DNA of 64,000 bases. It comes from Nymphaea colorata (Eukaryota; Streptophyta; Magnoliopsida; Nymphaeales; Nymphaeaceae). The translations under genes were made by a program, and so were the position numbers. Positions 12,458 to 64,000 of the stretch are shown here, in pieces. The first letter of the stretch is position 1. Each line of letters begins with the position of its first letter. The notes beneath the pieces are model-generated. The model saw only the letters and a list, made by a program, of their open reading frames with translations. It was not told the DNA's origin and did not search any database. The stretch is from assembly GCF_008831285.2 (NCBI RefSeq), contig NC_045144.1:23515716-23579715 (forward strand), read 5' to 3'.

Positions 12458-13019
12458 ATTCTGAAATTTAAAGAAATAGAGTACACGGGAAGTCATGAGT
12501 TTTGCTCATCCTGCAAGCAACACATATTTGTTTCTTTTCTAAATAGAGAAAGGCCGGCGACCAATGCCAACATTAATTACCCTCGTTCTCCTTCTGATCA
12601 GCACATGCAATTTTGAAAATTAATTGAATATAATTAATCCATTTTGTCCATGCAATATTAACCCATTTAGAGAAATATTCAACAAACGATACTGCGAAAG
12701 GATGAAATTTGATTATCACTTCGTTATCTTTTGCATGTAAATCCTTCTACAGAAAACAGACGTCTAATCATGACACCGTGCAAGAAAGACTTCATCAAAT
12801 TTAAATTCGAAAGAACTTTTACTCGAAGGAGGTGCTGCAAGGGTAGATTAGTTTTAGAGTTTGACCATTACACACTCCCACATCTTCGTTCGTACAGTAT
12901 TTACTTTGGATATTTGGAGAGTTTATTGTTCTACTTCCCCAATTTTTGCAACAAATTTAAAGTATTCCATGAATATGCCTTAATTTTTTGGGTAGATAGA
13001 ATACATGAAACAGTAATAT

Positions 13020-13650
13020 ACTGTTATTGTTGGCAAACATCCGTGTAACGTTTGGCAACAGGACACATTTTGAATATTCCATAAATCTGCCTACATTTGT
13101 CCTATATGAATTTAACCAAAAAATTCAACACTTAACCCTTAGCACATTAAAACTTGGAAGCAATGTGATCAGAAGCCCAAAGACAAGATGCCCATTCCCA
13201 CTACCAGTTTTCATTACATGATTACAGTCAAGGACTCTGTAGATTAACAGGAAGTTTTTTGTAGTTGCCTTCTCCTAAGCAATCTATACATTCAACAAAG
13301 TAGCCTTGTTGGTCACGTAACTGGAAATTGTTAATTTTATTTCTTCCATGTTAACTATTTGCTCGATTAAATAAAATCGATTCGAACGTCTTCGTTGGCC
13401 TACTTCTATCCGCCATGGTGTGACTGGAATAATTTTTTTGATGCGACGACTCCTTCTTCGCTACTATAGTTATTCATTAAAAACAAATAATAATCGTCCC
13501 CCTGCAAGTCTGCCTTCTAGAAATTCTCCATATAGTCAACCAACTATGCTTCATGACGCAGCAAGGGATCACGATCATGATGCGCTTCAACAATGAAAGT
13601 CAGATTCGTTCGAATGGAAATCAATGTCTTAAATGCCAAATATTTTGTTA
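13020..13650 (-). pseudogene. Possible cytochrome P450 relic, copy A
   Basis: The minus-strand translation at 13650-13420 gives LISIRTNLTFIVEAHHDR then, after a stop, LVDYMENF and KADLQGD. The copy B equivalent reads more openly. This resembles the P450 segment ahead of the I helix, but no heme-binding motif survives here. Stops and frameshifts are frequent. It is shared with 55333-55994, so it predates the duplication. The family assignment is tentative; an unrelated dead gene is possible. Confidence 0.25.
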
Positions 13651-13719
13651 GCTGGCGTCCTGGCTACTCTGTGTAGACTCACACCAACTAAACTCATGGG
13701 CCCTGCCATCTTAAACAAT

Positions 13720-15180
13720 TACCGAGAGATGTTATTAATTTCATCATATGCATATATTCTACAATTTAACTGCACAATCATTTTCCTAGAACATGGTGCA
13801 TAAGAGTTATTGAAAGCATTTCAGACTTCAAAGGAAGTTCTTTTACGCCTATAACGTTTAATTTCTAGAATAGATCCAGCGAGGCAAGGCCGCAAGAGAT
13901 TCCAGCGCTTAACAATTACAGGTTTCTTTTTGTGTTCCAACTAACATGGTTTCGATTAACAAATGCTAGTGCTTTGTTGAAAAGCACAAGTACATGGTGT
14001 TAAAAAGATTAATTTTTAATTGGGTTTGGATTTGATATATATCCAAAATCCATGTCCAAAGATAAAAGGACAAGTAAACGAAAAGGTGCTTTAAAGACAC
14101 CTTATTTGGTGTAGAGTTTTAATTCTATGTCTCTTCGGAATTTACCAAGAGATTTCCACGTTCTTTCGTACAAAGTTGTACCATTCGTTTTAGGGCTCTA
14201 TATAAAACTTTCTCTTTCTGCAAAATGTATGCCTATTGCTTCTCTTATTAAAATAATATCCTTGAGTGCACTTGACCAACAATGAGAAGGAATTTTTTAT
14301 ATCTCTTTCCTCTCAATCTTATTTCTATGGCTATTTACATTTTTTTTGCCACATAAGTAAGATACTCAAAAATTTCAAGAAGTGGCAGTATCAGACCTAA
14401 GGTTGAAAACCTCATCAAGGTTGAAATTAAGGTGGTGAATTTGAATAATTCGATTGCTAATCTTTCTCAACATTACATATCATGATCTTTAGGGTGAAGA
14501 ACATGATTTTTTGAGTCAAAATGAAGACTCCATTTACCTCGCAAGGGATTTAGGAGATTGTTCAAGCGGTTGCGAAGAAATGATAGATGATGTGATTTTT
14601 ACATCATGGACATATGCAAAACAAAAAAGAAATTGAAGCATAAGAAAAGCAAAGACACAAGGACATTTCTATGCATCCAGGTAGGGGTAAGTGATATGAT
14701 CTTACCCCATATCACGAGTGCAACTTCATCCAAAGAAGCTTGAAATATCTTAAAAAATGAATTTCAGGTCTCCAAAAAAATCATCAACGATTATGGAGAG
14801 ATTTTGATACATTATTTAAGGAGAACAATAAATCTACACAAAAGTGCTTTTTTCGAATTATTGAAATTAAAAACAAACAGGAAATTATGGCGCTAAATTT
14901 GAAGAAAGAAAAATGTTTGAAAAAAATTTAAGAAGTTCACAACAGAAGTACAATTATGTCACATTCCCCATAAAAACAGCAAAAAAATATCAACTTAGTA
15001 GTGATTACAGGAGTTAATGGGATCTCTTAAGGCACATGAGATAGGCAAATTGCGAAGATTGAGCCTCAAAATACGGAGCCTGCCTTCCAAGCAAGACTCA
15101 ATACTGATGAAGAAAAAGATATTTCCAATAACGAATATGAATTTCCAAATGGAAGACGATTTGATTGTTCGGCATTGCTG
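13720..15180. other. Intergenic stretch, nothing recognised
   Basis: AT-rich sequence without transposon motifs or convincing ORFs. It has no counterpart in copy B, where 56035 is followed after about 500 bp by the block matching 15185. Confidence 0.4.
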
Positions 15181-16246
15181 CTGCAGGTTTCTAGAGTTAC
15201 GCGTTCTACTTAGCAGAAAAATGGAATTTAGTAAGTCGATCTTCTCGGATGGGTGATAAAGAAAATATATCATGTACTGTTTCTTGAATGTGAATGCGAC
15301 ACCTAGACGATCGAGTATTGCCACAGGGACTATTTCCAACATATATATTAACAATTAGCCAAACTTGTAGAGATTTCCAACAACTTGTAGAGCTGGCGGC
15401 TTTCTCTGATCCTGATGGGTTTCTTAGCCAACATATATACTAACAAGAGTTGTGTGGAGACAGAGTTGACATACTACCAACCATTGGCAGTGAAACCACA
15501 AAACCACCAATGAGCTCAAAAGCTACAGACAACTTGGGTGAGAAGATGCTTGTGGCAATCCAGGAGTTGAATTCAAAACAACAGGCCATGATGATAAACC
15601 ACATGGTTTTGTTAGGTCGATGGTCCATTAGTAATGTCAAATAACGACGGATTCATGAATCACGTAGGCTTTTTAATTACTTTTGGTTACTTGTCTCGCC
15701 TGCAACTGACCACCGATCTCCAGGTGCAACTTGAATGACTTCTGATTCGCTTTAATTTGCGTGTGGCCAGATATAGAGTACCAAGTTGGCAATAATTAAT
15801 CTTTTCCTAATTGACTCACGTTAACAAGGTGGAAACTAAAATATTCTCATATTTAATTTGTTGTTGTTAGAGCCGGTAGGAGGTCCCAACCCTGATTTAA
15901 TTTGGTACGCCTAGAAATTGGTAAACCGCCAAACATGTATATTTTGACAATGACGTAAGTTGAATATGTCAGAGATTAAATTATATACATCATTCATACT
16001 TCTCATATACCGCTACCTCTAATGTTGGCGCAAGTTTAGCCCCGAAACTTCTGGTCATATGGTCTGTTGTCCACCAATTTTAAACCATACAGGCTTGGCA
16101 TGATATTACTTCATGCACTAATTCCCAACTGATGACATAATTAAATTCTTCTCTTTCCTTTCTGCTTCATCAATAAGAAATACTCAACAAGCAGTTAATT
16201 GGAAATAAAGTAATTTAGTAGTTAAAAAAAAAAAAGTTCTTTAGAG

Positions 16247-16254
16247 ATCCAAAC
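16247..16254. repeat. 8-bp target-site duplication ATCCAAAC, left copy
   Basis: It is identical to 17230-17237 and directly abuts the element start TAGGGCTCGG. Eight base pairs is the hAT superfamily target length. Confidence 0.9.
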
Positions 16255-16399
16255 TAGGGCTCGGCGTCAAACTAGGACTAGGCGTCAGGTTGGGCCAGGG
16301 AAAACATGGCCCTGGCCAGGCCCGGGCCCGTTAGGCCGGCCCGGCAGCGGTCCCGGGCCGGATAGTCCGGCCCGGCGGCGGCCCGGCCGGCCCGACTCC

Positions 16400-16795
16400 C
16401 GGGCTCCCGCCTCCCCCTCCCGCAGTCCCGCTCCCCCTCCTCCTGTCCTCCCTCTCCCTCTCCCCCTCCTCCTGTCCTCCCTCTCCCTCCTCCTCCCTCT
16501 CGGCTCCCCCTCTCCCTTCCCGTCTCCCTCTCCGCTCTCCCTCCTCCTCTCCCCCTCCTTCCTTTCCCTCCCTCTCTGGTCCCCCTTTCCCTACCGCTCC
16601 CCCTCTCCCTCTTTCTCCTCCTCTTACCCTACCGCTCCCCCTCTCCCTCTTTCTCCTCCTCTTTCCCTACCGCTCCCCCTCTTTCTCCTCCTCTCTGTTC
16701 CCCCTTTCCCTACCGCTCCCCCTTTCCCTCTTTCCCTACCGCTCCCCCTCTCCCTCTTTCTCCTCATCCCCGCTCCCCCTTTCCCTACGATTTTC
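16400..16795. repeat. CTCCCCCTCTCCCTC minisatellite (pyrimidine tract)
   Basis: About 400 bp almost entirely of C and T on the plus strand, built from variants of CCGCTCCCCCTCTCCCTC and TTTCTCCTC. The longer subrepeat CCCTACCGCTCCCC recurs at least five times between 16590 and 16750. It is a candidate for triplex formation. Confidence 0.85.
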
Positions 16796-16799
16796 CGTT

Positions 16800-17060
16800 T
16801 CATCTTGCTCATCGTCGTCAATGAGCCGCCATGAAAACCGGCATATCTTTTGAGAGATCTCTGGACTTGTTCAGCGGGGCGGCGAAGCCGCATGGAGAAG
16901 TCGCCGTAGGCGTAGTCGGCTTCCTAACTCGCCTCAGCGCGTTCCATCCTCTCACCCACCACTCGCCGCGGATGCACGACGACCTCCGCGTGGACCGGTC
17001 GGACGGGAAGCGGAGAGGGGAGGGGGAGCCGGCCGTCGGGCGTCTGTGTTGCACGCCAAA
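16800..17060. other. Unique GC-rich insert inside the hAT element, possible captured gene fragment
   Basis: Sequence between the pyrimidine tract and the right GGCCCGG-rich end. It is open on plus (from ATG at 16831) and also on minus (17054-16818). The plus frame begins MKTGISFERSLDLFSG and runs into the repeat; the minus frame ends MAAH. I do not recognise either as a known protein. Non-autonomous DNA transposons often carry pieces of host genes, so a captured exon is possible, but the origin is unproven. Confidence 0.3.
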
Positions 17061-17229
17061 AGGGCCGGGCTGGGCCTCAGTTTGGGTGGACCGGCCCGGT
17101 ACCCGGCCCGGCCCGGTACCCGGCCCGGCCCGGCAATTTTACGGGCCCGGGCCCGGGCTTCAGGCCCAATGGGCCGACCCGGGCCGGGGAAAACCTGGCC
17201 GGGCCGGCCCGGCCCGATACCCACCTCTA

Positions 17230-17237
17230 ATCCAAAC
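17230..17237. repeat. 8-bp target-site duplication ATCCAAAC, right copy
   Basis: Identical to 16247-16254, immediately after the element end CCACCTCTA. Confidence 0.9.
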
Positions 17238-18533
17238 AGTGAGCAAAAAATTGAGAATGAGAATAACAACTTTCACGGACATTAATTTCATGTAAATAGG
17301 TTGCCCTTGGATCTCCCACCCAAGCATTACTTTTTATTATAACTAAAAGATTATTAAAAGCGGATGCAATTATAAGAAGGATAACGAAAGAATAAAAAAT
17401 TATCGTAATATTTATCATTTTTCTTTTGCCAGAGTAAATATAAGAATTATGTAAACAGATTATAAGTTTTTCTTTATTATTAAGATGAATTGCCCGAGAG
17501 TTCCTAACGTGCCACTTGTAGCATATATTTAAAATTTTTCTACGGTTTTCCAAAAAAAAAAGACCTTCCACCTTTGAAAGTATAAATTTTTAAGTAAATA
17601 ATCAATGCAATGCACTAAGTAATCCTTTTTCACTTAATGCTAACGCATGCAAGACAAATAGGTCATATGGGACGTTCGGGCAGTGCCATATGCATGGAAC
17701 TATTAGCCCAGTCAGTGTACAAGTAATTGATTAATCAAATTATATATTCTTGAGTCATCTGTCCTTTATATTGCTCAAGAAGAGTGCAGAAGCCCACACT
17801 CCACCCCTTGTCCCTCTATTCATAACCAATAACACACAATTAATCTTCATATTTATTCAGTAATATATTTTATTATTTCAATAAACAAATATAAGAAAGC
17901 ACAACAACATATTAAAAGAGTGCAAAGAGTAGGAGGTAAATCCAACCTGCAATTCAAATTAATTTCACAAAAAATTAAAACGCTACGTACAAGAGGCTCA
18001 GAAGTACTCAGCAAGGGAAGCATGCATGAAGTTTAATTCATGGTCCAGGTGCGGGCAACTCCAATCAGACTGTGGCAACTGCACTGCCCTTCCGCGAAGC
18101 GGCGAGCGAGAGTCCCCAATCCCTTTCCAAGAGAAAGTTAGATAGCAGAAATATTGAAGCACATGACTGCATGCGGCCTGTATTTAAAGCTTCGGCCATT
18201 TGTACGAGCGTCAGTACAAGGAGATTGATGGCGGTAGTACTGAGTGCGAAGGACAATTGGAGTATCCATAGAAAGGAAAATGCAACGGCAAATTAAATTA
18301 TTAAAGGCTGAACCCACGGTACAATCACAATTTTACAAGTGGGGAAAGGTGAAAGCATTTGATTGTGCACAAAAGTTCAAGAAAGGAAATAGATAATCAA
18401 TTGGAGTAATCCGATAATTTGAGCAAAATCGTAACTCCAAGCCTAACCTCTGGTTTTTGAAGACTAAAACTTTCATACATCACGTATAATGAAAGTATCA
18501 CGTCTAATGAAAGTAAAGTTGGCAATCGGGGGT

Positions 18534-18534
<1 letters not shown>

Positions 18535-18571
<37 letters not shown>

Positions 18572-18590
18572 CATATATATACACGGGTGA
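18535..18590. repeat. TA/TATG microsatellite
   Basis: TA repeat with a few G and C interruptions, responsible for a spurious Tyr-Ile ORF on minus. Confidence 0.9.
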
Positions 18591-20254
18591 TTGGTAGGTA
18601 CCAGTCCACTTGGGTAAGAATAAAAACCAGACCTCTTAAATTCATGTTAAAAAATGCTTTAAGCAAAACATGGACCCTCTAATGTTTGTTTAACAGCAAA
18701 TTTAATATAAATCATGCTTTAGTTGAAGTCCTTTTTGTTAAACTGATCTTTATATTACCAAAATTGTGATGTTATAAGAGCCATTCATTATTTCACTTAA
18801 AAAAGCATTATTTAAGTGAGAAAACAACTAACTTAATGTATGATTCTCACCAAATCACTCTTCATATCATATTTTAAAGGCTACAATTCACAAAAATTAT
18901 TTTAATAATTAATTTCAATAGGTCAGGTTTTTTCTCTTACTCAACTCGTCTGATTTTTGCCAATTTTCTTATATAAATATATATATATAGTTTAGCGGTA
19001 TGACTCTATTAAATTTGCTTTGTATTATCTTACACGTTTCATCTGGGCTGGGGTAGCATAGAAGCTTTTTCGATCCTGTTAGAAAATGGACAGTGCTTGT
19101 CCTGCCGCTCACAAATAGGTAGTTTTTTTTTTCTTTTACAAATTTATGTACTTTCTGCTTGGGCATTAAGAGTATGAATATAATTATTAAAATATTTATA
19201 TAATTTAATTCCATTCACAGACTTAATTTTTACATATTGCTAATGTTTATGTCAACAATATGTATAGTTTAATTGTCTGGTACATATATGTCTTCTCGCA
19301 TAAATTTACGGCTCTGTCAATGACTTAATTTGACAATCTTGTTTTAGGTCCCAATCAACTGGCGTATAATACTGCAGGCGTTAGCCTCCGGCCTGTTATT
19401 CCAAAACCAAATGAAATTGCATGGAAAGTGGCTCGAATTAGTAATATTATCGATTAGAGGTCAAAGGCTCGATTGAGTTACAGAACTAATATTAATGCAC
19501 TAAAATTAACTTTCTTAATCCAAACAAAGGCGGCACGACGTCAGGCTTCTTGATGACACTTTCTTAAATTCCATTACCACAAGCAGCTTGGCTATAATTA
19601 ATTACACGTACACTTTGACAATTAATTTAATGTGTAGGAAGACAAATAATTTGGGAGGGAGAGGATCTCTGGCACGACTATCCGCTCAAGATCTTTGAAC
19701 ACGTCCACATCACATTCCTTGAATCTGATAATCCTGAGAGATTGCATGGCAGCAGCATTAGATAAACTACCCTATCATTAGTCTTTGTGATAGAATAGGC
19801 CCCATCTTCAGGCAGAAATTTTTTGTTGCAAAGGTTGAATTATAGTTTCAAAATTTTAAAGAGACCAAAATATATTTTTTTCAACTTTTTCTTTAAATCT
19901 GAACAGGGGGAGAGGTGGTGTGAAGGAACCGAATGAATAGCAAAGAGCCAGCAATTTGGAGAAGTGTTGCAATGGAAATCTCTCCTTGAAAGCTTGCCAA
20001 TTCTTTCTTAATTCAATGGGCAGACCAAACTTCTCCTAATCCATATAATATCACTTTTTCTTTTGCGGAATATCATGATGCTCTATAGTACTTTTTGGGG
20101 CCCTACAATCGTTGATTATGTTTAAATCGTACCATATGTTTTTCTTCTCAGTGTTCTAATGCCTTTTTTCTTAAATGATTAGATAAAATATTCGTCTTGC
20201 CGTCCCAACCTCTTGCTTAAGCACCTCCCAATTAACAATCACATATATATATAT

Positions 20255-20400
20255 ATATAGTCATTGGATTCCTCCAGCCATCCCTTAAATCCGGTTCACC
20301 TACACACACATATATGTGTGTGTGTGCTGTCATTGGATTCTTCCAGCCATCCACAAAGTCCGGATCTCTCACACAGAGACCATGACAGATGGGTTGCATG
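20255..20400. repeat. Short tandem duplication
   Basis: The block GTCATTGGATTCYTCCAGCC followed by ATCC and a TCCGG motif occurs at 20260 and again at 20330. A palindromic ACACACATATATGTGTGTG tract lies between the copies. Confidence 0.7.
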
Positions 20401-20475
20401 AACGGAGAATTTCAGCTTATATATATATATATATATATATGTATTCATTAGTATATCCAAGACAACTTAGGTCCA

Positions 20476-21180
20476 AGACACAAAAATCAGACCGCCAAGT
20501 TCTTGTAACAAAATGATCATAAACAACATATGAACATTCCAGTATGTCCATATAGATACTAATTCAACATAAAACATATATTATCAATGTTGTTTCGAAA
20601 AGAAGATACTTTGTTTTTTTCATGCAGTTCTTCTACCAGCCCCATTTTCTAATAGTTGGAATAGATTCTTTTTCTTTCTCTCTATTTCTCCCTGCCCTGG
20701 TCTTAATCCGTCCTTCCTCACACGGGTTTCAGGAGAAGGTGGGAGGAGTAGGGGAGGTAAGAGGAGTGGAAGAGATGCAAGGAAGAAAAGGGAGAGGAGT
20801 CAATGTCAAATAAATCTTTTAAAATTTGGTTCAACACGGTTTAACAAAGATGTAGGCAAGAAATATTAGGGTTGTTAGAGTTCTAAAAATCAATAGCAAC
20901 AACTTTTACTATTCTTTCGTACCGATCTTTCATACTTTTCAAACAAAGGAGCAAAAACTTTTTTTTTCTTTTTGCTCTATGCATCTCAGTCAGTACTATG
21001 AAGACATTCAAAAGGTGTGATCTCGTTGGCTGGTAAGAATATAGGCGTAGCTTGAATTGTAAGAAAGCTGCATCAGGTAGGGGTGGAAATTTTTGAAGCG
21101 TTCTTTTATGTCTGTGGCCAACGTTATGAGTCCCATGTTCAAGTAAACAAATTATGGTAAGGACAGCCACTTTTTATGCC
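20476..21180. other. Non-coding block shared with copy B (56790-57690)
   Basis: It matches copy B through the CATTTTCTAATAGTTGGAAT block (20643-20662) and the GGGTTGTTAGAGTTCT and GTGATCTCGTTGGCTGGTAA blocks. It carries no recognisable gene in either copy. Copy B has an added CT microsatellite. Confidence 0.6.
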
Positions 21181-22272
21181 ATAGTGCTTCCAGATAGGAA
21201 TAATAACATATATATGTATATAACCTCAAGTAAATTTCTAAGACGTCATCTATCTGATCTGATGCCTTGCCTGAAACCAAATTTTGGACCATTGGGTTCA
21301 TAGAAAACCCGATCCAAAAGCTATAGCTAATTAAATTTAAACTATGTGAATTAGGATGGAATGTTGAATTTCTTTTTTGATTTACGTCCAAATTAAATCC
21401 ATTTTAGAGAAAATTTTTCTTGGGAAGGGGAGGACACGCCTGGTCCGGAAGTGGCAGCAACAAAACCTCCCGTCTATCTCCGGTTCTGCGGCCGTCTGAA
21501 TATAAATTTTAGTGCACTCTCCAGGAGCAGGGGGCACGATCTGTTCCCAATTGATTAGGGACCTAAGCATTCTTCTAAATGATCGGCCCCGAGCATTCCC
21601 TGGATTGTAGCATAATGGCAATGAATAATTATTAATTCATGAAAGCGGTGGTTGCACAGCAAACGTCGTTGGCTTGCTAACCACCGCAACATGTTTAGGT
21701 AAAAATGCATGCTTAGGGAAAAAAAATATTGACAGGAACAATGGTTAGGCAAAAAAAAATGTTAATCCATCGATGCTTTTTATCAATGTGGTTGAAAGAG
21801 TTACGCGATTTAGCTTTCCAGGTCACGGGAAGCCCCGCATCCTCCAAATTAAGCCATTAAGTTCAAGCCTTCTAGTTCCTCTTTTATTTTTATAAATTGT
21901 TCGGTAATAAAAGGATTACAAACTGTCAAGCGACCAACTTTCAAAGGGCTAAAATTCTTAGAATTTGAACTTTTAAAAATCGGCGTATTGACCATGACCA
22001 CTGCCAGCCCCTGGCGCCACCCCGTGCCATGATGAGTTCAAATCCCAATTGTGCAATGTGCATACAGATGGCCTATTTTGATTTAATAAATTGAAAATCA
22101 AAATTTAATATGTTAAGTTCCAGTTACCCTCCTATGCGGCTTAATCTGGATGTAAATTGAAAGGACTGATCATAACTATGGGCCGAATGTACTTTTATAA
22201 TTATATTTCATATAGTATCTAAATAAAAGAAGCTTCATTTGGTTTTTCCGGAAGTAAAAAACAACAACCATT

Positions 22273-22443
22273 ATGGGTTGTTTGGTAATTAAAACACTTT
22301 GTGAGTGTTTTCCGAATCCACACGGAAGATTGAGATAGTTTTATGGATCACTAGAACTAAGTACTCATGAATCTGCCACAATCTTTAGGGCTGGGCATGT
22401 CCATGGAACGCTCACAAAGTGTTCTATTTACCAACCGACTCAT
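22273..22443. mobile_element. MITE-like element with roughly 31-bp terminal inverted repeats
   Basis: The left end GGGTTGTTTGGTAATTAAAA followed by CACTTTGTGAG mirrors the right end CTCACAAAGTG followed by TTCTATTTACCAACCGAC. Total length is about 170 bp with no coding capacity. No unambiguous target duplication was found, so the superfamily stays open (hAT or Harbinger-like). It lies about 1.9 kb upstream of the LPR start codon. Confidence 0.65.
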
Positions 22444-22445
22444 TG

Positions 22446-22920
22446 GGGGCATTTGGATGACTCTCTCAAAAACACAATTTTGTGAAAATTTGGTTTATAA
22501 GAATGAAATAGGCATTTGGATGACATTGTTCAAAACAGATAACATGTTTTAAGCCCAATTTTTCAAATATTGGTTTGTTTGATAGGAGAAAACACTTGAT
22601 TAATTGGAGGGTAAAAATCAGCTTTGCCTTTAATGAAAAAAGGGGTTTTGTCAAAACAAAGTTAATTTTGACAAGACTCAGTTTTGATATTTTCTAAATG
22701 CTCCTGAAATGGTGTTTGGGAGACAATACTATATAAATGCCTATAAGTTTTTAATCTTGAGTTTTAAAAAATATATTTTGTTTTTTGTGAAAGCGTCATA
22801 ACAGAAGTAGGGCGAGGTTATTACTCCCCTAGGTTCCATGGAAACTGGTTTCAGCTTATAAACCCAGTTTTATGTCGATCCACTCTAAACCTGGTTTTAG
22901 ATTGTCATCCAAAAGTCCTT
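22446..22920. mobile_element. Second MITE-like element abutting the first
   Basis: The left end GGGGGCATTTGGATGAC and, in reverse complement, the right end AAGGACTTTTGGATGAC agree at 13 of 17 positions. Flanks GACTCATT and TACTAATT agree at 6 of 8, compatible with a worn 8-bp duplication. A second internal GGCATTTGGATGAC at about 22511 suggests a nested or duplicated end. No ORF of note. Confidence 0.5.
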
Positions 22921-23130
22921 TTACTAATTATACATTCTAAAAAAAGTTTCCGCAGAAAATGACTTGCCCTCCAAGTGGTAATAAACTTGAAAAAAGCAAC
23001 AGTTGCAAATGCATGGAAATTGCGTTGGTACATGATAATCTTGGGGGTTAAGACATAATGGAGGTTGTTGACATGTCACAAGTGGGGATCAATTAAGACA
23101 TAATCAAGATTTCCTCTTATGCATTACTGC

Positions 23131-23600
23131 ACGTGAATATTTTATAATGCAAATATGATGGATTCCACTCGCATGCATGGCCCCAGCCTTCTCACCTCTC
23201 CATTGACAATACCCACGCTCCATACCTAACGTCGTCGTCCAACTCATTCGAACAGCGCTCCTTAACCTTGTTCATATTCAAATAGCCCCACGATCAGAAG
23301 CTCACCTCCATCGAAGCGTTAGCAGGCCACACGTCAAAGCTTTGGCCTTCAAGCTTGCAGGACATTTTGAAGACGTGAGCGGTTTCCCGCCGACGAATTC
23401 CTGTACATGAATATTTTATAATGCAATATCGCATGGATGGCCCCAGCCTTCTCACCCCCCTCATTGACAACATCCCACTCTCCATACCTAACGCCGACGT
23501 CCTAGTCGTCCTCGTTCATCTACAAATAGCCACGATCAGATGCTCACATCCATCCAAGCGTTAGCAGGACACACACCCGTTGGCCTTCATTTTCTCAGGT
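23131..23600. repeat. Tandem duplication of about 230 bp upstream of LPR
   Basis: Copy 1 begins ACGTGAATATTTTATAATGC at 23131; copy 2 begins ACATGAATATTTTATAATGC at 23405. Both continue through CATGGCCCCAGCCTTCTCACC-like, CTCCATACCTAACG, CACGATCAGA and AAGCGTTAGCAGG blocks. Substitutions and small indels separate them. Both lie 0.7-1.2 kb ahead of the LPR start codon and may belong to its promoter. Confidence 0.75.
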
Positions 23601-23642
23601 CGCTTGCCTTTCTCGCTACCACACAAGCAAGCCTTGTCTAGT

Positions 23643-23646
<4 letters not shown>

Positions 23647-23685
<39 letters not shown>

Positions 23686-23748
23686 GTTTGGTTGTATTTG
23701 GCATCTAATCCTCTTTGATGTGGCTCCTTTTTAACCAAGTTCTTTTCA

Positions 23749-23789
<41 letters not shown>

Positions 23790-23790
23790 C
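23647..23790. repeat. CT and CT-TA microsatellites in the LPR upstream region
   Basis: A pure CT run at about 23647-23683, then CT at 23751-23768 continuing directly into TA to 23790. CT tracts are common near plant transcription starts, but position alone does not prove a promoter role. Confidence 0.85.
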
Positions 23791-24335
23791 TTGTGTGATA
23801 GTGTAGTACTGCATGTGACAATATGTGAAAAGCCATATGTAACAACCTAAGCCATGTTATCCTTGGCGAGAATGACATGATATCTCTCATCTCTTCATGT
23901 GTCTCAGGTTCCACTAGTTTCATCTAATTAACCCATTGTTGCTTTTATATCCCAGTCCGCCATTAGTTTGGACGTAAAGAGACCCCAAATCATGCCTTAT
24001 GAAGCTTAACCCATGGATTATATGATTCAAAATTCAAAATTAACCCATGGGTGTCCATCTGACATGGACAGCCGCCAGAATTTCAAGCTGGAAAACATCG
24101 ACCGGCGTGGGCTGTCCATTGTCTATTTTGGAAGCGGACTGTGTATAGGCGATCGAAATGGGCCACGTATCAATGGAAACTATGAACCAATACCGAACAC
24201 ATTCTGCATGCAACAGCGATTTTATAGTGTTTTTTTTTTTTTCATGCCACAACCTGTGATTTTCTTTTTATACCAGTCGTCATTTTTCTCCGTTTTCTGG
24301 TGTCTACAGGCTGGTTAAATTAAGGTGAACCAAGA

Positions 24336-28204: not shown

Positions 28205-28384
28205 AAAAAAGATTAGTCACACCGAAAAAAATGCAAAAAAAATTGTGGCCTATGGTGTCATATGTATGGATTAGCAATGAACAAAGATACGGTACTAGTA
28301 TACGTACCGGTATTGAAAAATTCACTCATATGAGATGATTGAAAAATAAAAAGTTCTTGTTGATTGTTCAATTATGTTGTTGAT

Positions 28385-52536: not shown

Positions 52537-53554
52537 TGAAGAAGAATCAAATATATACACACGAAGGAGAGGCTGATAAGATACAATGGAGCCAATCTAT
52601 GGATGATGTGTTTATTGATGCATTACTGCTTCAACAAATAATATGTAATCGAGTGAATGACACTTTTACTACAACTGCATATGTAACATTGTGACGGAAA
52701 TGAATGATAAGTTGGGTAAAATGCTCACCAAGGATCACATAAAAAATCGAATGAAAACGTTCAAGTTTAATTTCAATAGTTGTTATGACATCTTTAAAAG
52801 TAATTTGAGTGGATTTAGCATTGATTCAAGGACAAATATGTGGACTGTTGAACCCGAAGTATGGAAGCCACTAATAGAGGTACCTAAATTTCTTTTTAGC
52901 AATTTAATATTATTTTTTTATAATTTACTTTTAATGTTAAATATGAGTTTCTTTGACGTTGTTATCCTTTTTTTTGTGTTTTTTACAGCAAATCCAATGG
53001 CAAAAAAGTGGATGACGGCACCTGTTCCAAACTATGAGAAGCTAGTAAATTTATTTGGTAATGATTAAGCAACAAGGGAAGGATCGACGACAGCAAATGA
53101 AAAGCGCAACTGAATGACTTTAGCGTGTGAGAGTGCTGGCGAGACAATCCAGCTTATTGATGAAATGGTTTCTTAGAATCAGGTAGTATTAGAACCATTT
53201 ATCAACCTACGAGACGAGTGTGAAGTACAAGTTGAGCCCAACACAGGTTCATCATTAAAGCGTAAAAGGAGAAGAAGTGCGAATGAAGATCACTTAAAAG
53301 AAATTGAAATAATGAAAGATGCCTTTGAGAAAGTTGCTAATGAAATTGAAAAAAAGTGATGTCGTACCAGAGCCGAGACAGTCAAATAAATATTATAAAG
53401 AAGACATATTTCCTGCATTTGAAGTTATTGGTCTTAAAGAAGAGTTACAAAGCAATGCATATCTTTATCTTACTGATGATAAAGATAGGATGGAAACATT
53501 TTTTGTTTGTCCTTTTTCTAAGCGAAAGAATGTTTTATCTAGGATGCTAAGCTG
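52537..53554 (+). pseudogene. Harbinger second ORF: Myb/SANT-like DNA-binding protein, broken
   Basis: It starts MKKNQIYTHEGEADKIQWSQ and continues with the SANT-like block (MDDVFIDALLLQQ, NRVNDTFTTTAYV). A frameshift at about 52685 moves it to the frame giving VTEMNDKLGKMLTKDHIKNR and MKTFKFNF, then MWTVEPEVWKPLIE. An intron follows (GT at 52880, AG at 52987-52988), then PMAKKWMTAPVPNYEKLVNL. A stop follows LFGND. The C-terminal part is in another frame (53319-53554): IFPAFEVIGLKEELQ and ETFFVCPFSKRKNVL, matching the Myb/SANT-like partner that helps Harbinger transposase bind DNA. Spliced as drawn, the intron also costs the frame. Confidence 0.82.
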
Positions 53555-54228: not shown

Positions 54229-55077
54229 GGAGGGCAACAATTTTGGATGAGGTAGTTTGGAGAGATGCCAATTGAGAATTTTTACTTCTACTGCTGCATC
54301 ACCTCAATGATAATTAAGTCCGTACTTCAAATATAATTTAGAGATGATTATTTCTCTTTTGTTTTCAACACGAGAAAACTGCACTTAAGGTGCGAGACTT
54401 AGTCACACCCTAAATAGGGAAAACCCTCTCACTAATACTTGAAGGAGGTGCTACTATTTAATTGTTTTAATTTTGCATGATGATACTGCCTCGATGACCC
54501 ATTTCTATCTTCTTTTTATTATAATCTGGATCTCAATTTCGGTTCTACAACATAAACTAGGGCAAAGTGGTATATTTTTTTATAACTTGGATCCAGTCCA
54601 TGGTTTCTTTCCGGATACAATAGTATATATTGAAGATAATTTGGGTCCATGATAAAAGTGTAATACTATTGATGGATTTTAACATAAATATGGTAGTAAG
54701 AGCGATATGATAAGAAAAACTTTGCTTTAAGTTGATCATTTTTTTTAGTTTTAAATATGTTACTTTAATTTTTCATTTATTTAACTTCCTTATTACATGA
54801 AAATTTTAAGCCTTCATTATTATGTATTTCACCTTTTTTCATGTATTTTTGTAAATGTTATTTGTTATTAAAATTACATACAATGCAAGTCTTTTTTTTT
54901 TTCAATGTACAGCGAACATGTGAAAGTTTTGGACAATCGGCAAGCAAATATGTGTGTCAATGATAAACACGACAATCAGTGACGAATGGTTTTGTCATTG
55001 ATAGCCAGGTGTTGACGTTAGTAACAGCTTTTAGTTTCTCATTTGTTGTGCTCCTAACTGTTATTTCTCTTGTAGTG
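54229..55077. other. CACTA-like right portion, non-coding
   Basis: AT-rich sequence without ORFs of note. The last 150 bp hold CACTA subterminal-style words and end in CTTGTAGTG at 55077, exactly where similarity to copy A resumes. Confidence 0.45.
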
Positions 55078-55332
55078 AGTTCTGAAATTTAATAAAATAG
55101 GACACAGGGAAAGTCATGAGCTTTGCTAATCAAGCAAGCAGCACATATTGATTTCTTCTCTAATGGAGAAAGGTGGGGAAATGCTTGTTAAAAGATACTG
55201 GTGACCAATGGTAGCAATATATAGTATTTTCTCTAGTAAGTAGAGATAAGAGTCACGAATATTACTTGCCCTCTTTCTCCTCCAGATCACCACATGCAAC
55301 CCTGACAATTAACGGAAAATTAAACTGTACCA

Positions 55333-55994
55333 TTAATATACCTTATTTTTGGGTGGATACATAAAACAATAACATACTTTAACTATTGCCAAATGTCCTT
55401 GGATCATTTGGTAGCATGATATTTTGTAAGCGTTCCACAAATCTGCCTCTGTTTGTGCTCTGGAAAACACTTGACTACCTATGACTAATCGTCGGAACAA
55501 CATGATGACAAGGCCAAAGTCGAGATGTCCATTCTCACTATCAGTCTTCATTAGATAATTACGGTCAAGGATACTATAGATTAACAGGAAGTTTTTTGTA
55601 GTTGACTTGTCATCAGCAACCTATCCATTCAACAAAGTGGCCGTGTTCGTTAAGTAACTAGCAAATGTTAATTTTATTCCTCCCATCTTAACTATTGCGT
55701 GAAGACCTCCTCTACTAAATAAACTCAATTCAAATTTCTTCATTTATCTATTCCTACCTACCATGGTATGACTGGAATAATTTTATTGAAGATACGATCT
55801 GCATCTTTGCTCCTGTAGTTATTATTTATAAAAAACAATACAATCACTGCACCTTCATGCAAGTCTGACTTGTAGAAGATCTCCATATAGTCAACTAACT
55901 CTTCTTCATGAGCAAGCGAGAGATGACGATCATAAAGTTCTTCAACAATTAAAATCAGTTTCGCTCTAATGGAAATCAATGTCCAAAAGGCCAA
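55333..55994 (-). pseudogene. Possible cytochrome P450 relic, copy B
   Basis: The minus frame 55994-55758 reads LISIRAKLILIVEELYDRHL then a HEEELVDYMEIFYKSDL block, similar to the P450 region before the I helix. The frame 55551-55333 reads SENGHLDFGLVIMLFRR then G and FSRAQ, which can be laid over the P450 'F.L.PFGSGRR.CPG..FA.Q' heme region, but the ligand Cys and the FGSG core are missing. A TNTATLLNG word between them resembles 'IPANTxLLVN'. Each similarity is weak; together and in order they make a dead P450 plausible. Confidence 0.3.
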
Positions 55995-56039
55995 ATATTT
56001 TGGTAGCTGGCAGGCATCCAGGCTGTACAGTCAACCCAC

Positions 56040-56530
56040 TGCACTAATGTGCCATCACGAGTTATGCATGCCGTGCACCCTTTTGTATAGTCTGTGGTGA
56101 GCGCAGAAATTTTGGGCTAAGGGGCGCCACTAAATATAAAAGCTTCACATCTTAAAGGGTAGTGCTATATATATAAATGAGCATATTTTTTTAAATATCA
56201 ATATGAAAATAAAGTGATTTTGTGAAGAAACGATGAAGGGAAATGAGAAATCACAGACAAAAACCAAAACAGAGAGATAGAATAAAAGAAGGTCAAGCTA
56301 GTGTTCGAAACAAGCAACAACATGCGGCAAATATATTTACAAAACCAAATAATCTTTTAAATAAATTATCTGACTGGCTCCACACCAAATTTAGAGCCCG
56401 CTGTCCACCTTTACTTATAAGAGCAGGTTTGACACCTTGATTTCCTACAATATCATACAAAGTTATCACTATATACAGTTAGAATTGGTAATGTATAGAT
56501 GACATGTTCCTTTGACTTGCTTGTTTTGCT
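56040..56530. other. Copy-B stretch without counterpart in A
   Basis: It includes a GGGGCGCCACTAAATATAAA word near 56120 and a 65-codon plus ORF (56243-56440) with no recognised domain. Probably a small unrelated insertion. No TSD found. Confidence 0.35.
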
Positions 56531-56961
56531 TTACTGCTGCAGTTTTCTAGAATTGCGCATTCTACTTTAGCAGCAGTATGGAATTCAGTAAGTCGTTCTT
56601 CTCGACCGGATGATTAAAAAAATCTACCATTATCAATACTCTTTCCTAAATTTGAATGCGACACCTAGACGATGGACTATGGCTCCAGGGATTAGTTGGA
56701 GGCCGATAATCGGAGAACAAGCAATTTGCCAAACTTGTAGAGATTTCCAACAAGAGGAGAAGAGCTGGCGACTTTCACAGAGACAAAAATCAGACCATTT
56801 AAGTTCTTGCAAAAATGGTTTTAAAAATGATGTGAATATTCTACAATGTTTGTAGATACCAATTCAACATAAAACATATATTTATTCAAGTTGTTTAAAA
56901 AGAACACTTGTTTTTTCATGGATTTTTTCTACCAGTCTCATTTTCTAATAGTTGGAATAGA

Positions 56962-57007
56962 GTCTCTCTCTCTCTCTCTCATACTCTCTCTCTCTCTCTC
57001 TCTCTCT
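56962..57007. repeat. CT microsatellite
   Basis: CT run with one CATA interruption; expanded compared with the copy A equivalent near 20665. Confidence 0.9.
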
Positions 57008-57742
57008 ATCACCCCTGCCATGCTGATCCTACCTTCCTCCTTATCTGTAGAAATCGTGGTGTATCAGTTCAAGGAATGCATGGCATCCTCCATTTTATAT
57101 GATGTATGCTTGATTTTTAGTAACATATGGGGGAATGGTAACCTATTAAAAGAGTTAAGAGTATGATTTGCAGATGCAATCGCTCTTCCAGGTTCAACGC
57201 TTTGTTGGACTTGTGTTAATATTATTTTCCTTTATCTCTCCTTCGAATGGTTTCAGAAGAGGGGGTCGGGAGCGGGGGAGGTAATGAAGAGGAATCAAAG
57301 AGGTACGAGGGAGAAAGGTGAGAGGACTCAATGACAACGTAATCTTTTAAAAATTAATTCTACATTCAACAAAGATGTAGGCAAGAAACATTAGGGTTGT
57401 TGGAGTTCTGAAAATCAATGGCATTAACTTTTACTATTCTTTCGTACGACCGATTTTCCATACTTTTCAAACCAAAGAGAAAAAAACCTGTTTTTTGCTC
57501 CATGCATCTCATTCAGTACTATAAGAACATCCAAAAGTGTGATCTCGTTGGCTGGTAAGAATATTGTAGCTTGAATTGCAAGAAAGCTGCATCAGGTAAG
57601 GGAGGAAATTATTGAAGTGTTCTTTTATATCTGCGGCCAACGTTATGAGTCCTGTGTTGAAATAAACAACTTAAGATGAGGACAGCCACTGTTAAATCTA
57701 TGTTAGTTAAACAGGTAAAGAATAAGGAGGCAAGATTAATAC

Positions 57743-57743
<1 letters not shown>

Positions 57744-57795
<52 letters not shown>
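57744..57795. repeat. TA microsatellite at the copy B deletion joint
   Basis: TA run corresponding to 24790-24823 of LPR intron 1 in copy A. The roughly 3.6-kb loss of promoter and exon 1 ends just upstream of it. Confidence 0.85.
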
Positions 57796-57798
<3 letters not shown>

Positions 57799-58965
57799 AG
57801 ACAAAATCCACCCACTTTCTGAATGCATGGATGTTTGTATACCGTGCAAAGTACATTTTACGTGTATTATCAAAGAAAATGTTTTTAAAAAACAAAAATT
57901 ATACAACTTCTGGTTAAAATTTCATATATAATACTCATGTCATTTTTCATGAAACTAGTCTTGAAAATAAATGTCTACTAAATCCTGCTTATAGACCGAA
58001 CATCTAAAAAAATTTCAAATATAATCCCCAGTCTGGTTGCTTACGAGTAGAACTTGACAGGTGCCTAAAGCTGTTGCTTTTGTGGAGATCAAGTGCATGA
58101 GTTTAATTAAAATCACGAACAAGTATGGAACGAAAAATAATTTGGAAATCTCAACACCACAAATTAAGTAAAATAGTTTTTAAAATGTCCTACTTTAGTG
58201 ATGTGATCAGCTCCTGATGGAGTATATTTTGCTCATGAATTGCATGGTAAAACTCTCATGTCAAAGCCTTCTTCTTTTCCCCATTGAAGAAATGGAGAAC
58301 GTATGGCTAAAGTTAAAATACCCCAAAAATATTGAACCTAATTAGGAGCAATCCTTTTTCATAAAAAGTTGTCCTCAAGCTACTGCCCTTATTATAATGT
58401 TGTCTCTTAGTATCTTAAACGCTAGATGGTTATGAACATTCATTTTCAATTCCCCATTTTTCCCCAGTATTGGAAAGATGGAGTATTTTGGCACGGCACT
58501 CTATAAGATCATATATACTAAGAGATTTACATAAGTAAATTGGAATGTTTTCGGTTGGTCTTAGTTGTCATTCATATTAAAAGCTCCAGCCATTCAAGTG
58601 TCGGTTCGTCTAATTGTGCTCCAGCCAAATTTTGGCTTGAGCTTAACCAAGTTGAGTTCGAGCTTCTTAAGCTGGAGCTAAACCAAACTCAAACCAGTCA
58701 ATGCAAGATCGACTTAGGCTCGAGTTGTGGCTTAAGGAGCTCCAGCAGAATTCAAGCTGGCCTACCTTGGCTGGTGAACAGCCCCCAACGGTTGGCCATC
58801 TTCAATATCAAGGTCTTGTGTCCCAAACATACCACAACGGTTGGTCCTGAGTGGATAGAGCCCCAGCTCTTTTTTGCTGTGCACAATGCACGATAATGGT
58901 TCAATAATAAAAATAAAAATACTCCTCTCCATTGATCCTTCTAACTTTTATAAATTCTTGAGCAG

Positions 58966-59849
58966 ATATTCCATAGAGATCTACTAGACACCACCATGTT
59001 TGCATTGGAATGTCATAAACCGCAGCAACAGCTCCTGATCCGACAATATTGACCCTTCAAGATGTGCCAACCTACATCACATGGGAAAATCACCAACCAT
59101 CCACCCATATACTCCCTTGGGATCCAACGATCCTCAATGCAATACCAAAGAGCGGAGGTGTGGCCACAGTCGTCCATCTTCATGGTGGCATTGATGAACC
59201 ACAAAGTGATGGCAGCCCATTCGCTTGGTTCACTGCAGACTTTAATCAAACCGGACCAGCTTGGACCACACCAACCTACACTTATCTAAATGACCTCCAG
59301 CCGCCAGGCATCATCTTCTACCATGACCATGCACTTGGCAAAACCAGGGTGAATCTCATAGCTGGTCTTTTTTGGGGGTACCTCATCACTGATCCAGCGA
59401 CGGAGAGCCGCCTAAATCTTCTCTCCGGCTCATTTGATTGCCTGGTCATGATCTTCGACCATAGCTTCAATGAAGACGCTTCTGTATACCTGAACTATAC
59501 TGGTGTGAACCCTCAATGGCAGCCAAAGTACTTCGGCAATGCCATCATAGTTCATGGCAAGGTTTGGCCCTTCATGAACGTCCAGCCGAGAAAGTACCGT
59601 TTCCGAATCGCTAGTGTCGCTAATGCTCGGTATTTTCATCTTCCATTGAGCAATGGCCTCAATTTCACTCAAATAGCTTAAGATTACTCCTACCCTGCCT
59701 AGCCAATTGTTGTTAGTTCCATATTGCTCTCCCCTGCAGAAGGCACTGATGTGATTATCAACTTCTCGAAGTCCTCCGGTGAGGTCTTCCTACAAATCGA
59801 TGCTCCAAATCCTTACCCTTCTGGTAATGCAGTGGATTCCCTTAATTAC
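58966..59849 (+). pseudogene. LPR1: LPR-type multicopper oxidase pseudogene, copy B
   Basis: Homologue of LPR exon 2 codons 1-298. Exon 1 with the signal peptide is absent upstream. A 1-bp deletion in the word equivalent to GCATTTGGAATG (about 59006) shifts the frame. The original frame is open again from 59049 and keeps HLHGG and YHDHALG. A 12-bp in-frame deletion removes PPVH-equivalent residues near 59508. TAA at 59679-59681 and a further TAG shortly after (59699-59701) terminate it. Similarity stops at 59849, and the sequence continues with what is 28605 in copy A, so the type-1 copper site (HPLHLHL, HCH...H...M) is gone. It cannot make an active oxidase. A transcript could still share sequence with the live copy. 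Confidence 0.92.
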
Positions 59850-59865
59850 GATAATAATACGTTTT

Positions 59866-60000
59866 CATTGCTTTCTTTTTTTCTTGAGGCTAACTTTGTC
59901 TCCATTCCTTTAAGTGTCTTTCCAATATAGCCATTGGTGCAATTGCCTTTATTTGATAATAACGTTATGGACCATTACTTAATATTCCCCATCAAGTTCA
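59866..60000 (-). repeat. Truncated 3' LTR of copia element 2, copy B
   Basis: Remaining part of the LTR corresponding to 28605-28705 of copy A (GTGTCTTTCCAATATRGCCATTGG block). The deletion that removed the LPR 3' end also took the outer half of this LTR. It retains a 25-bp segment, GATAATAACGTTATGGACCATT plus flanks, that copy A has lost. Confidence 0.65.
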
Positions 60001-60560
60001 CCATATCCAGAGAGGTAAACTTGATTAAGTTAAAACTAGGAACAATGGAACCATTTGAGTATCATATCAAGTGCTTGATTCAAATTTTTGCGAGTTGATC
60101 TTGAGTAAAAAATATCAAATCGTCATTTCACCCCCAGCAAGTTCCTTTATGACAAGTGCATGTGAATTTCAATATACTTGCAAAATAGTGATAGACTGAA
60201 TGTGGTGCAAGGTAGGCAGCTCCAACATTATCACGCCTGTGGACAGGTTTGCTTGCACTAACTACTTTGAGCTCTTTAAATAGATGTTGGATCTACATAA
60301 TTTTTGCTACAATGTTTGCACTGAAGATTTGTATTCTACTTCAATGTTGGATCATGAAACCACATTTTGTTTCTTGGCATTCCATGATACTAAAACCTAT
60401 CTAGTGAAGACAAAGTATCTTCCATGCCTAGATCTTCAGCCATCTGTGCACATAACCTAGCCTACATCATTTTAAGAAGTAATGTCCATATTTGTTGATG
60501 TCCGAAGAAGAATACTATAGTCAAACCTATGCTTTAAGCACCTAACAATACATTTTACAA
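60000..60560 (-). pseudogene. Ty1/copia RNase H region of element 2, copy B
   Basis: Equivalent of 28720-29300, with the same decayed blocks plus further substitutions and indels. Confidence 0.65.
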
Positions 60561-61280
60561 CAGCTGAATGAAAATCCATGGACTGCGCTTAAATCAGCAA
60601 TTTTTGTTTACTGCAGAGGCAATGCCAGGTATAGTCATTGTGGCATATTGAAGTGCAGCTATTCTTCTATATAAAATTGGATGGTTATATTTTGTCCCAA
60701 AGAAATCCATTCAAGTCAAGCTTGAAGCCATAGGAGCTGAAATAGGTTTAGCGCCAATTATGTTTGTCAACTTTATTAGAACCACGATATACTTTCCTTT
60801 GAAAGAACCAATCTTTGATGGAGATTTCTGGCCTGATTTTCAAAACAATACTACAAATCACCTACATTTTTTACAGCAAATTTGGAGACATAGGAGGTAA
60901 TGACTAGCGAATCTTTAAGTGACTTGTCTATGACAACAATATCTACATAGAAACTTAACCAAGTAAACCAAGCTGTTGGATCCTATCTTAAGCATATAAT
61001 GTTTTATGTAATTTGCAAACATCATTATCAATTTTGGAATTTTCTTTGACAAATGGGGGTGAAGGTTAATCTACATATTTTTTACTATATCTTTGGTCCT
61101 CTTTATTCTGAACACTTATTTACAACATATTATATGCTTGGCAACTTATGAGGAAAGAAGGCTTCTGATTTCGTTATAAAGAACTGAATGGTATCTAGCT
61201 TCCAATAACTCCTTCCATTTCTATATGGAAGAGCTTCACTGTGGCTAGTTTAGTGTCTTGGGTTCAAATAGATGTTAAGG
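60560..61280 (-). pseudogene. Ty1/copia reverse transcriptase of element 2, copy B
   Basis: The minus strand near 61250-61190 shows EPKTL and KWKELLEARYHSVLYN, the conserved entry of copia RT ('EP.t...A...W..AM..E...L..N'). Downstream blocks correspond to 29300-29564 of copy A but are more damaged. Confidence 0.65.
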
Positions 61281-61446
61281 CTAAATGGATATTTGGCAAC
61301 AAATGAATATAGTTGAAAACTTAAGAATTTTGAGTGTGATTTTCTGAATTTTTAACTGAGACTAGGGCACCATTTCTTGTATTCTAAAAGATGTAGATTC
61401 TATTTGCCTTGCATAATTACAAGGATTGGTTGTAGTGCGTGACTGG

Positions 61447-61641
61447 CTAACCTTGTATTATTTGCCCAATGTTGGTTGCATCAATCAATTGATGAAATGA
61501 TCTAATCTTGTCATTAGATACAGTAGGACTCTTATGTGCAGCATTTTGATCATTGGGACTACTGATCTCAACTTGGCTTGTCATAGATTGAAGTGCTAAG
61601 TCCACAAATTGATTTAACCTCAAGTTTGGAAGAGAAAGCAA
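61447..61641 (-). pseudogene. Integrase-RT linker of copia element 2, copy B
   Basis: A 64-codon open frame with the same Ser/Asn-rich sequence as 30295-30528. Confidence 0.45.
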
Positions 61642-62199
61642 TAGAACTTGGTTTACTAGTTTGCAGGCATACCCTCTTCCTTACTAGTGTCCTCTGAATA
61701 TGAATGTTGATGCATAAAAAAAATTAGATGATAACTTACTACAGTATTTTTATTATTTTAATTCATATTACAAGAATAATACCTTTATTTTTTGAGGAGC
61801 ATATTTGAGAAAAGCACTATTTTCAAATCTAGAATGAAATTTTAATTCGGTGTCTGCTCTAGGATAAGGGTGACATTCTTAGACAAAAATCCTTTAAAAA
61901 TTGTAATTAGGAGTTCTTTTAAAAAGGTTTTGAGGAGGTGACACTTTTGGTTTGCGTATGATTTATATGATAGACTGGACGTAAAAAATGATACAACCAA
62001 AGATATTCTTGAATATTAACTTTTCCCATAAGAATACACAAACTGTTTTATTCTAAAATTTTCACCTTGATATTCAACATGGCTTGTGATGTCATTGGTA
62101 GTATGATGAGTTATGTCTAAATCCAACTACTTGATCTCATCTCCACTTGCTCGTTGGAAAATGTTTTGGTAGTGACATAATAGGCTGGGGGATTTGTTC

Positions 62200-63020
62200 A
62201 CAAAGGCAGTTGTTTTTTTTCTCGAGAAAATTTGTGTAAAATAACCATTCTTTGCAAGAAGTCTAATTTTGTCACAATTTATATAAACCAGTCAATTTTT
62301 CCCTTGAAATGTTTGGTCTTTTATTTTGATAGTTACTTCTTCCTTAACCTCTATAATTTTGTTGTCAATTATAATTGGCCATTGTAGTTACATTTGCTGC
62401 ACGAATAAGTGAATCTACCAATTCCTTGTGGTCTTTTTATTTTCTCCTTGCATTAGGACCAGCCCATGTAACACATTTAGTGAATTTGGCTCATTTCTAT
62501 TCTCCATAATAGTACAAAAACCACAAATTTTGAATGTAGACATTTTAAAATAAGAATGATTAGATCATCTTCATCAACTAGTTTGGATATTATAGCTAAT
62601 TGATATGCTATAGCCTTCGTCTTACAAATATATAAATATATGCTCGAGGATCCCATTTTAGGATCTTGTAGCCGAGATATGAGGTGCAATTTCTTCATGT
62701 AGAGTAAGCAGTGTATAGCTACTTGAGATGTCTCCAGACAACAACAAAGAAATTCATCCCTAGAATTTGTAGTGTGGACATTTTTAGAGAAAGATGAAGT
62801 AATCTAGCTTAACAATAGCTAGTCTTGCATAAACAATTGAATATATTCTTGATTGATATCATTTATCTCAAAATCAAACTTAGTAGGCATTTTTCTAGTG
62901 TGATCAATGAATCCCATGACATCGCATGAAATGATGATTGGAATGAAACTAAGATTCTAGTCTCAAACAATTTTCACACTGAGCTCTATGCTGAAAAAGT
63001 AGTGTGAAATATTGGATATT
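62200..63020 (-). pseudogene. Ty1/copia gag of element 2, copy B
   Basis: The best-preserved gag of this element. Minus-strand blocks are ISCDVMGFIDHTRKMPTKF, EYIQLFMQDQLLLS and ITSSFSKNVH (about 62960-62800), then KAIAYQLAI and LVDEDDLIILIL (62698-62477). These match plant copia gag in order ('GxxLxGFVDGTxxxPxKF', 'WxxQDQLLLSWIxSSLSEEV', 'KxxADQLAxxGxPVxDDDLIxxIL'). Stops and a frameshift remain. Confidence 0.8.
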
Positions 63021-63149
63021 TTGTGACGGCAAATGTAAAACTCATCTAAGGACTTGTGTTGTTTGAACAGTTCGAGTTCTCTATAGATGATGAGGATGCC
63101 AGTGAAAGTGTTCGAATGATCAAATGCTTGATCTTTGATACTATAATGC

Positions 63150-63520
63150 TAATCAGTTAGAAAGAGGGAAAAGTGAGAGACACAAGATTATATGATTGTC
63201 CTGTATGACATACATCCAAGGTTATTCACTTGCTTGCCTTCAACATTTTTAGTGCATTGTTACATTTGGTTTCATTTTAATCTCCTTGTACCCACTATGA
63301 ATAGTTTTTTTTTTCACACTCATCAAGTCCATTTTTCCTTATTGTAAGATTAAGTTAGCCCGGATTACCTTTTTGCTTTAGCCTAACCTTATTTTTATTT
63401 ATTGCACATGTCTCACTAAAATGGCCCTTGGTGAAGTTTCCATTTTATGGACCCATCGGTAATAATCACTTGGTCAAATAGACTCTAAAAGGAAATGTAC
63501 ATTATTATCCAATCGATTAA
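63150..63520 (-). repeat. 5' LTR of copia element 2, copy B
   Basis: Equivalent of 32001-32378. The adjacent primer-binding site is mutated (TTTGATACTA at about 63135-63144 against TCTGATACCA in copy A). Confidence 0.6.
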
Positions 63521-64000
63521 CATTGAAAGGTTCAAAATAAGATTCAACATAGTGCACAGTAGACTGATGTGCCTCACATGAAAGGACTGAATGCAAAGTG
63601 TCCCACATGACATGATTGAACACAAAAAAACAACTTGTAATCCCTAGGGGTTTCAACTAACTACAAATAGAAAAAACTCAATCCTTATCTTATCAATGAT
63701 AATTAGTTCATCTATGCAATAGATTTTTCATTTCTTTTGCAAGATTGTTGAGGAAACATTATTATGTTTATTTTGTATGATATTGTTTGCTCTTATGCAA
63801 TCATGGCCTCTAGCACTATAGGTTGGTTTACATTTAGCATCATCCGTAATCTAATTTACTACTTTGTCTTCTCTAATAACACACTAAATTTTCCACTATA
63901 CCCATAGCCAGGTCCGAACTATTTGTTATCACAATCTAGCTCTCAAACTTTTTTGAACTATTTTGGCACAGTTTTCCAAAATTTTCTAGATATTTTAAAC
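63521..64000. other. Right flank of copia element 2, copy B, shared with copy A
   Basis: Matches about 32379-32880. No gene recognised. A minus-strand frame (63656-63474) is shared with 32463-32281 but has no domain signature. Confidence 0.5.

Follow-up and report, generated by a model that had tools for sequence, protein, structure and literature searches.

The Arabidopsis multicopper oxidase LPR1 is a ferroxidase that has been modeled on CotA, with an acidic triad formed by E269, D370, and D462 and with H464, C563, and H568 as residues of the type-1 copper site (PMC9168544). Clustered LPR duplicates are already known, since rice carries five LPR genes (OsLPR1-5) inside 65 kb of chromosome 1 (PMC5048653), and raised copy numbers of LPR1/LPR2 are reported for aquatic or wetland plants, Acorus and Cryptocoryne among them (PMC9300462, PMC10873505). 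The word "pseudogene" is absent from the main text of the rice study (PMC5048653), and among the titles listed in a literature search none concerned LPR pseudogenes. The stretch considered here, referred to below as the window, comprises 64,000 nucleotides of Nymphaea colorata (contig NC_045144.1, positions 23,515,716 to 23,579,715, forward strand) and holds two sequences of the LPR family, whose enzymes oxidize iron and act in phosphate sensing, one with an intact reading frame (copy A) and one that is fragmentary and disrupted (copy B). It is highly probable that the pair arose through an old direct segmental duplication that included an LPR gene, after which copy A was kept by purifying selection while copy B decayed by deletions and drift.

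Self-BLAST of the window showed that 11 main blocks of copy A (12455-32879) are repeated at copy B (55075-64000) in identical order and on the same strand, with bit scores of 93-3325, and a self-comparison at higher sensitivity added two short blocks to this chain. Unless stated otherwise, all features of the two copies lie on the plus strand. The chain runs from 12455/55075 to 32879/64000, and its same-orientation collinear blocks are those expected of a tandem segmental duplication; a segmental duplication had been proposed in a sequence-only reading of the stretch, in which a self-comparison was named as one check. The left borders given in that reading (12458 and 55078) were accurate to within three bases, but the right border of copy A was seen at 32879 and not at 33000. 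Aligned base by base, the blocks differ at 1027 of 7556 columns, a total in which about 15 bases of B are counted twice at overlaps between neighboring blocks, and identity per block is 76-92%. Two short same-strand matches fall outside the chain (28413-28467 with 63166-63218, and 32229-32312 with 59868-59950), further matches of this kind being (AT)n and (TC)n, and the higher-sensitivity search of A against B found no opposite-strand matches beyond (AT)n microsatellites. Insertions or deletions account for the difference in length between copy A (20.4 kb) and copy B (8.9 kb). If both units abut at 55075, the unit of duplication would be about 42.6 kb, including the spacer at 33-55 kb.

The LPR gene of copy A is modeled with three exons, at 24336-24575 (80 codons), 26186-27640 (485 codons, with acceptor CAG and donor GTAAGT), and 28151-28204 (54 bp including the stop, ILDHEDNEMMRPLKLVR), which agrees with the earlier description of a complete three-exon gene. 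Joined, the exons read as one uninterrupted frame with 582 codons before the stop, and the introns are GT-AG and in phase 0. Exon 1 encodes a hydrophobic N terminus that resembles a signal peptide by eye, and the exon-2 frame contains two Cu-oxidase families of Pfam. Exon 2 alone matches Bacillus CotA (PDB 1gsk) with 319.8 bits, whereas the spliced product aligns over residues 73-580 with 346 bits (E 3.7e-102), and this rise in score on joining supports exons 1 and 3. No third LPR copy was detected in the window by tblastn, the two extra matches having E values of 1.6 and 8.8.

The predicted protein of copy A carries H151, H153, H200, H202, H467, H470, H472, H563, C564, and H565, each of which is also present in 79-80 of the 80 bacterial relatives retained as an outgroup (see below), as well as H569; in this family, residues at these positions serve as copper ligands. 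It also carries an acidic triad, E272/D375/D465, in which D375 is likely, from its position in the linker, to be the equivalent of Arabidopsis D370; the columns of this triad read E-D-D in 32 of the 80 bacterial loci. D465 lies 193 and H467 195 residues beyond E272, the same distances that separate D462 and H464 from E269 in Arabidopsis LPR1 (residue numbers from PMC9168544). By sequence, the protein is an LPR1-type ferroxidase, and it would be expected to be secreted and to oxidize Fe2+.

Copy B retains only part of this gene. About 0.88 kb of exon 2 is left (58966-59846), adjoining intron-1 sequence at 58036-58832 that is homologous to A 25119-25918; neither exon 1 nor exon 3 is present. At one junction (57694-57758), which ends in a (TA)n tract of a kind also found in intron 1 of copy A, the equivalent of A 21175-24775 is missing, and with it the upstream region and exon 1; at a second junction (59837-59860), the equivalent of A 27080-28587 is missing, and with it the 3' part of exon 2, intron 2, and exon 3. 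The latter joint shows, by eye, about six bases of imperfect similarity (CTCAAT / CTTAAT). Relative to the frame of A, the exon-2 remnant is interrupted by in-frame stops at exon-2 codons 18, 243, and 250; the loss of 1 bp at codon 14 shifts the frame, 12 bp are deleted in frame at codons 182-186, and K is encoded at the site of E272. Pfam at E 0.001 found no domain in two pieces of copy B, though these match A clearly. The losses, the stops, and the frameshift had each been recognized in the sequence-only reading, and its contrast between one live and one dead LPR copy is likewise upheld. Because intron-1 sequence has been kept, copy B is an unprocessed pseudogene, a class into which its disabling lesions, its retained intron and flanks, and the relaxed constraint described below also place it.

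Changes between the two copies were polarized with bacterial relatives as the outgroup. When contigs were scanned with a two-row alignment, 477 relatives were recovered from 527 stretches and the best 80 were kept; a scan with exon 2 alone gave 18 stretches that fit the pattern, none of which was confirmed as a relative. The relatives are mostly Bacillus-type Firmicutes and at least two genomes are present twice, so that the tallies count relatives and not independent lineages. With all 80 loci, the 35 amino-acid differences between the copies comprise 16 changes assigned to B, 2 assigned to A, and 17 left unpolarized; with a subset of 39 loci having the motif HLHG in frame, the corresponding figures are 20, 1, and 14, the 80-locus count being the weaker of the two and the one to rely on. 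Among 116 sites that are near-invariant in the 80 loci, B alone has lost 10 and A alone none, with 77 kept in both copies and 29 in neither. Over 289 of the 298 codons of the remnant, the three stops of B and six irregular codons being omitted, nonsynonymous divergence (dN) is 0.056 and synonymous divergence (dS) 0.128 by the NG86 method, giving a ratio of about 0.44 (range 0.28-0.74 over 200 bootstrap replicates); we read this ratio as above expectation for two constrained copies. Since the polarized changes fall mostly on B, the comparison indicates that copy A is held by selection and that copy B, which has decayed, is not. The several independent lesions, together with the excess of amino-acid changes, suggest that B was already nonfunctional during much of its existence, and it is thus unlikely to add an active dose of the enzyme. 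Differences in LPR dosage between accessions and an intact copy B in relatives, both raised in the sequence-only reading, are conjectures that the present observations do not support.

The events best fitting these observations would be as follows. An old direct, tandem-type duplication would have copied a segment holding an LPR1-type ferroxidase gene; copy A, encoding a predicted secreted multicopper oxidase, would have stayed under purifying selection; copy B would have lost its upstream region and exon 1, and also the 3' part of exon 2, intron 2, and exon 3, by deletions; and the exon-2 remnant would have drifted, after these deletions or along with them. The duplication is real but ordinary, the decay of one copy being a well-known fate of tandem duplicates. 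Kimura two-parameter (K2P) distances are 0.08-0.29 per block and 0.09-0.29 in non-coding sequence, those of the three blocks of the 3' flank (0.09-0.13) being close to the exon dS. At substitution rates of 6.5e-9 to 1.5e-8 per site per year, a dS of 0.128 corresponds roughly to 4-10 million years, a figure that conveys scale only.

Several features sit less comfortably with this account. Divergence is uneven along the segment: measured per 200 columns, it is 0.18-0.33 up to approximately A 20800 and 0.03-0.16 to the right of this point, except for 0.27 in one window (25341-25567), so that the left part (12455-20800) has diverged nearly twice as much as the right. Such a pattern is not expected from one duplication and uniform drift thereafter. 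Possible causes are an earlier, partial exchange of sequence between the right-hand parts of the two copies and faster drift on the left. The match between A and B also persists to base 64000, the end of the window, which places the right end of the duplication outside it, and a dN/dS ratio of 0.44 is compatible as well with a copy B that was active for part of its life. In the protein of copy A, the third triad residue lies at an offset of 103 as against 101 in Arabidopsis LPR1, and the distance from E272 to C564 is 292 as against 294, with H569 likewise two residues closer. Decay of methylated cytosines was considered as the cause of the left-hand divergence and rejected, transitions being no more frequent relative to transversions on the left (183/152 in five blocks, 12455-21174) than on the right (370/298 in five blocks, 25119-32879).

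The uneven divergence would also suit an assembly artefact, in which the second copy would represent the alternative haplotype, or else a homeologue misjoined in tandem, and the window by itself is compatible with a misjoin. However, non-coding K2P values of 0.09-0.29, accompanied by kilobase-scale indels, are too large for two alleles, whose usual divergence they far exceed, and copy B begins 22 kb beyond the last block of A that recurs in it, with no significant LPR match in the interval. For the first of these reasons the allelic artefact that had been feared in the sequence-only reading appears unlikely; the same distances, with the exon dS of 0.13, indicate an old duplication and not two alleles assembled twice, and an artefact of any of these kinds is given very little probability. 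Capture of a gene piece by a transposon, or its retroposition, would account for the presence of only part of the gene in B, and transposon pieces do occur in the window, but B keeps intron 1 and both flanks in the order of A across several kilobases; with intron and flanks shared, B is not a processed copy, nor is it an exon that was captured, and this origin, which we reject, is scarcely credible.

It is also highly improbable that copy B has a non-coding function, for instance as a source of small RNAs matching A or as a donor in gene conversion. Exon 2 does contain a 69-base run of identity between the copies and one 200-column window at 97% identity, and a 210-codon open frame survives in B. 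Yet a second 69-base run occurs in the 3' flank, and when the right part was shuffled 2000 times, 373 of the shuffles gave a run of at least that length. Neither among matches of at least 80 bases in the window nor between A and B at higher sensitivity was the exon found in inverted copy, which could have served as a hairpin source, and constraint on the coding frame is relaxed. Gene conversion in exon 2 was accordingly set aside as a candidate, the longest identical run, found twice, not being unusual and thus demonstrating no conversion tract. There is similarly very little chance that a transcribed remnant of B yields small RNAs or a decoy that would tune the live LPR gene in trans, such that the presence or absence of B would alter phosphate or iron sensing between individuals.

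Other features of the duplicated segment lie outside the LPR gene. A stretch of 5.07 kb in copy A (15405-20475) is flanked by blocks that are only two bases apart in B, and may be either an insertion in A or a deletion in B; no target-site duplication was recognized at it by eye. Within it lies a GC-rich island (16226-17295) with CT-rich tandem arrays, GC content reaching 58% at 16001-17000 compared with 35.5% over the window. About 129 bases of A (29802-29930), missing in B, have the inverted ends ATAACTAG ... CTAGTTAT by eye and are possibly a small miniature inverted-repeat transposable element. The longest shared flank occupies 61045-64000 in B and is homologous to A 29931-32879. It includes in B, on the minus strand, a weak copia gag remnant (62480-62803; PF14223, E 2.4e-4, under the curated cut-off) whose counterpart in A (31368-31604) has no Pfam match; because the remnant sits in a block common to both copies, it probably predates the duplication.

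To sample the genes beyond the two LPR copies, 20 of the 139 six-frame pieces of at least 70 codons were submitted to Pfam, and no Rfam match over the gathering score was found for structured RNA in the window. To the left of copy A, positions 729-10059 form a long imperfect inverted repeat in self-BLAST, the arms of which are in pieces that are 67-77% alike (ungapped, for example, 776-861 against 9928-10013 at 84%). Its loop holds minus-strand pieces of copia pol at 4376-6399 (SH3_retrovirus, gag_pre-integrs, Pol_BBD, and RVT_2), but the arms are not the long terminal repeats of this element because such repeats would be direct. The spacer between the two copies contains a direct repeat of about 1.1 kb (39142-40242 and 41092-42313, 68-71% alike) and a Myb/SANT-like DNA-binding domain at 52661-53065 (PF12776, E 1.4e-7). 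A minus-strand piece at 44400-44669, without a match in Pfam, presumably resembles a PIF/Harbinger transposase.

The importance of the locus is modest, but it is a clear example of a live LPR copy paired with a dead one, and at a dS of about 0.13 the pair is useful for comparing decay with constraint. LPR copy number has been invoked in arguing that aquatic plants are adapted to low phosphate (PMC9300462, PMC10873505), and fragments such as copy B, if included, would inflate counts of active LPR copies.

Set beside the described systems, copy A resembles Bacillus CotA laccase (PDB 1gsk and others) in sequence family and in its copper ligands, with 42% identity in the alignment with exon 2, whereas the sites of E272 and D465 are occupied by A and G in CotA. 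Like Arabidopsis LPR1 it is a CotA-like multicopper oxidase, with which it shares the acidic triad and the spacing from the glutamate to D462 and H464; it differs by two residues in spacing at the third triad residue and the type-1 cysteine (PMC9168544), and in having three exons where Arabidopsis LPR1/2 have four (PMC5048653). Its 54-bp last exon is of the length found in the LPR genes of Arabidopsis and rice, OsLPR4 excepted, it has three exons as do OsLPR1, OsLPR2, and OsLPR5, and its longest exon, at 1455 bp, compares with 1446-1551 bp in the rice genes (PMC5048653). The duplicates are clustered as in rice; however, the five rice members are listed as genes (PMC5048653), while here one of the two is a pseudogene. 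Like the LPR expansions of aquatic plants, the locus appears to record a lineage-specific LPR duplication, but whereas the counts in those plants have been read as adaptation (PMC9300462, PMC10873505), the extra copy in N. colorata is, to judge from its lesions, dead.

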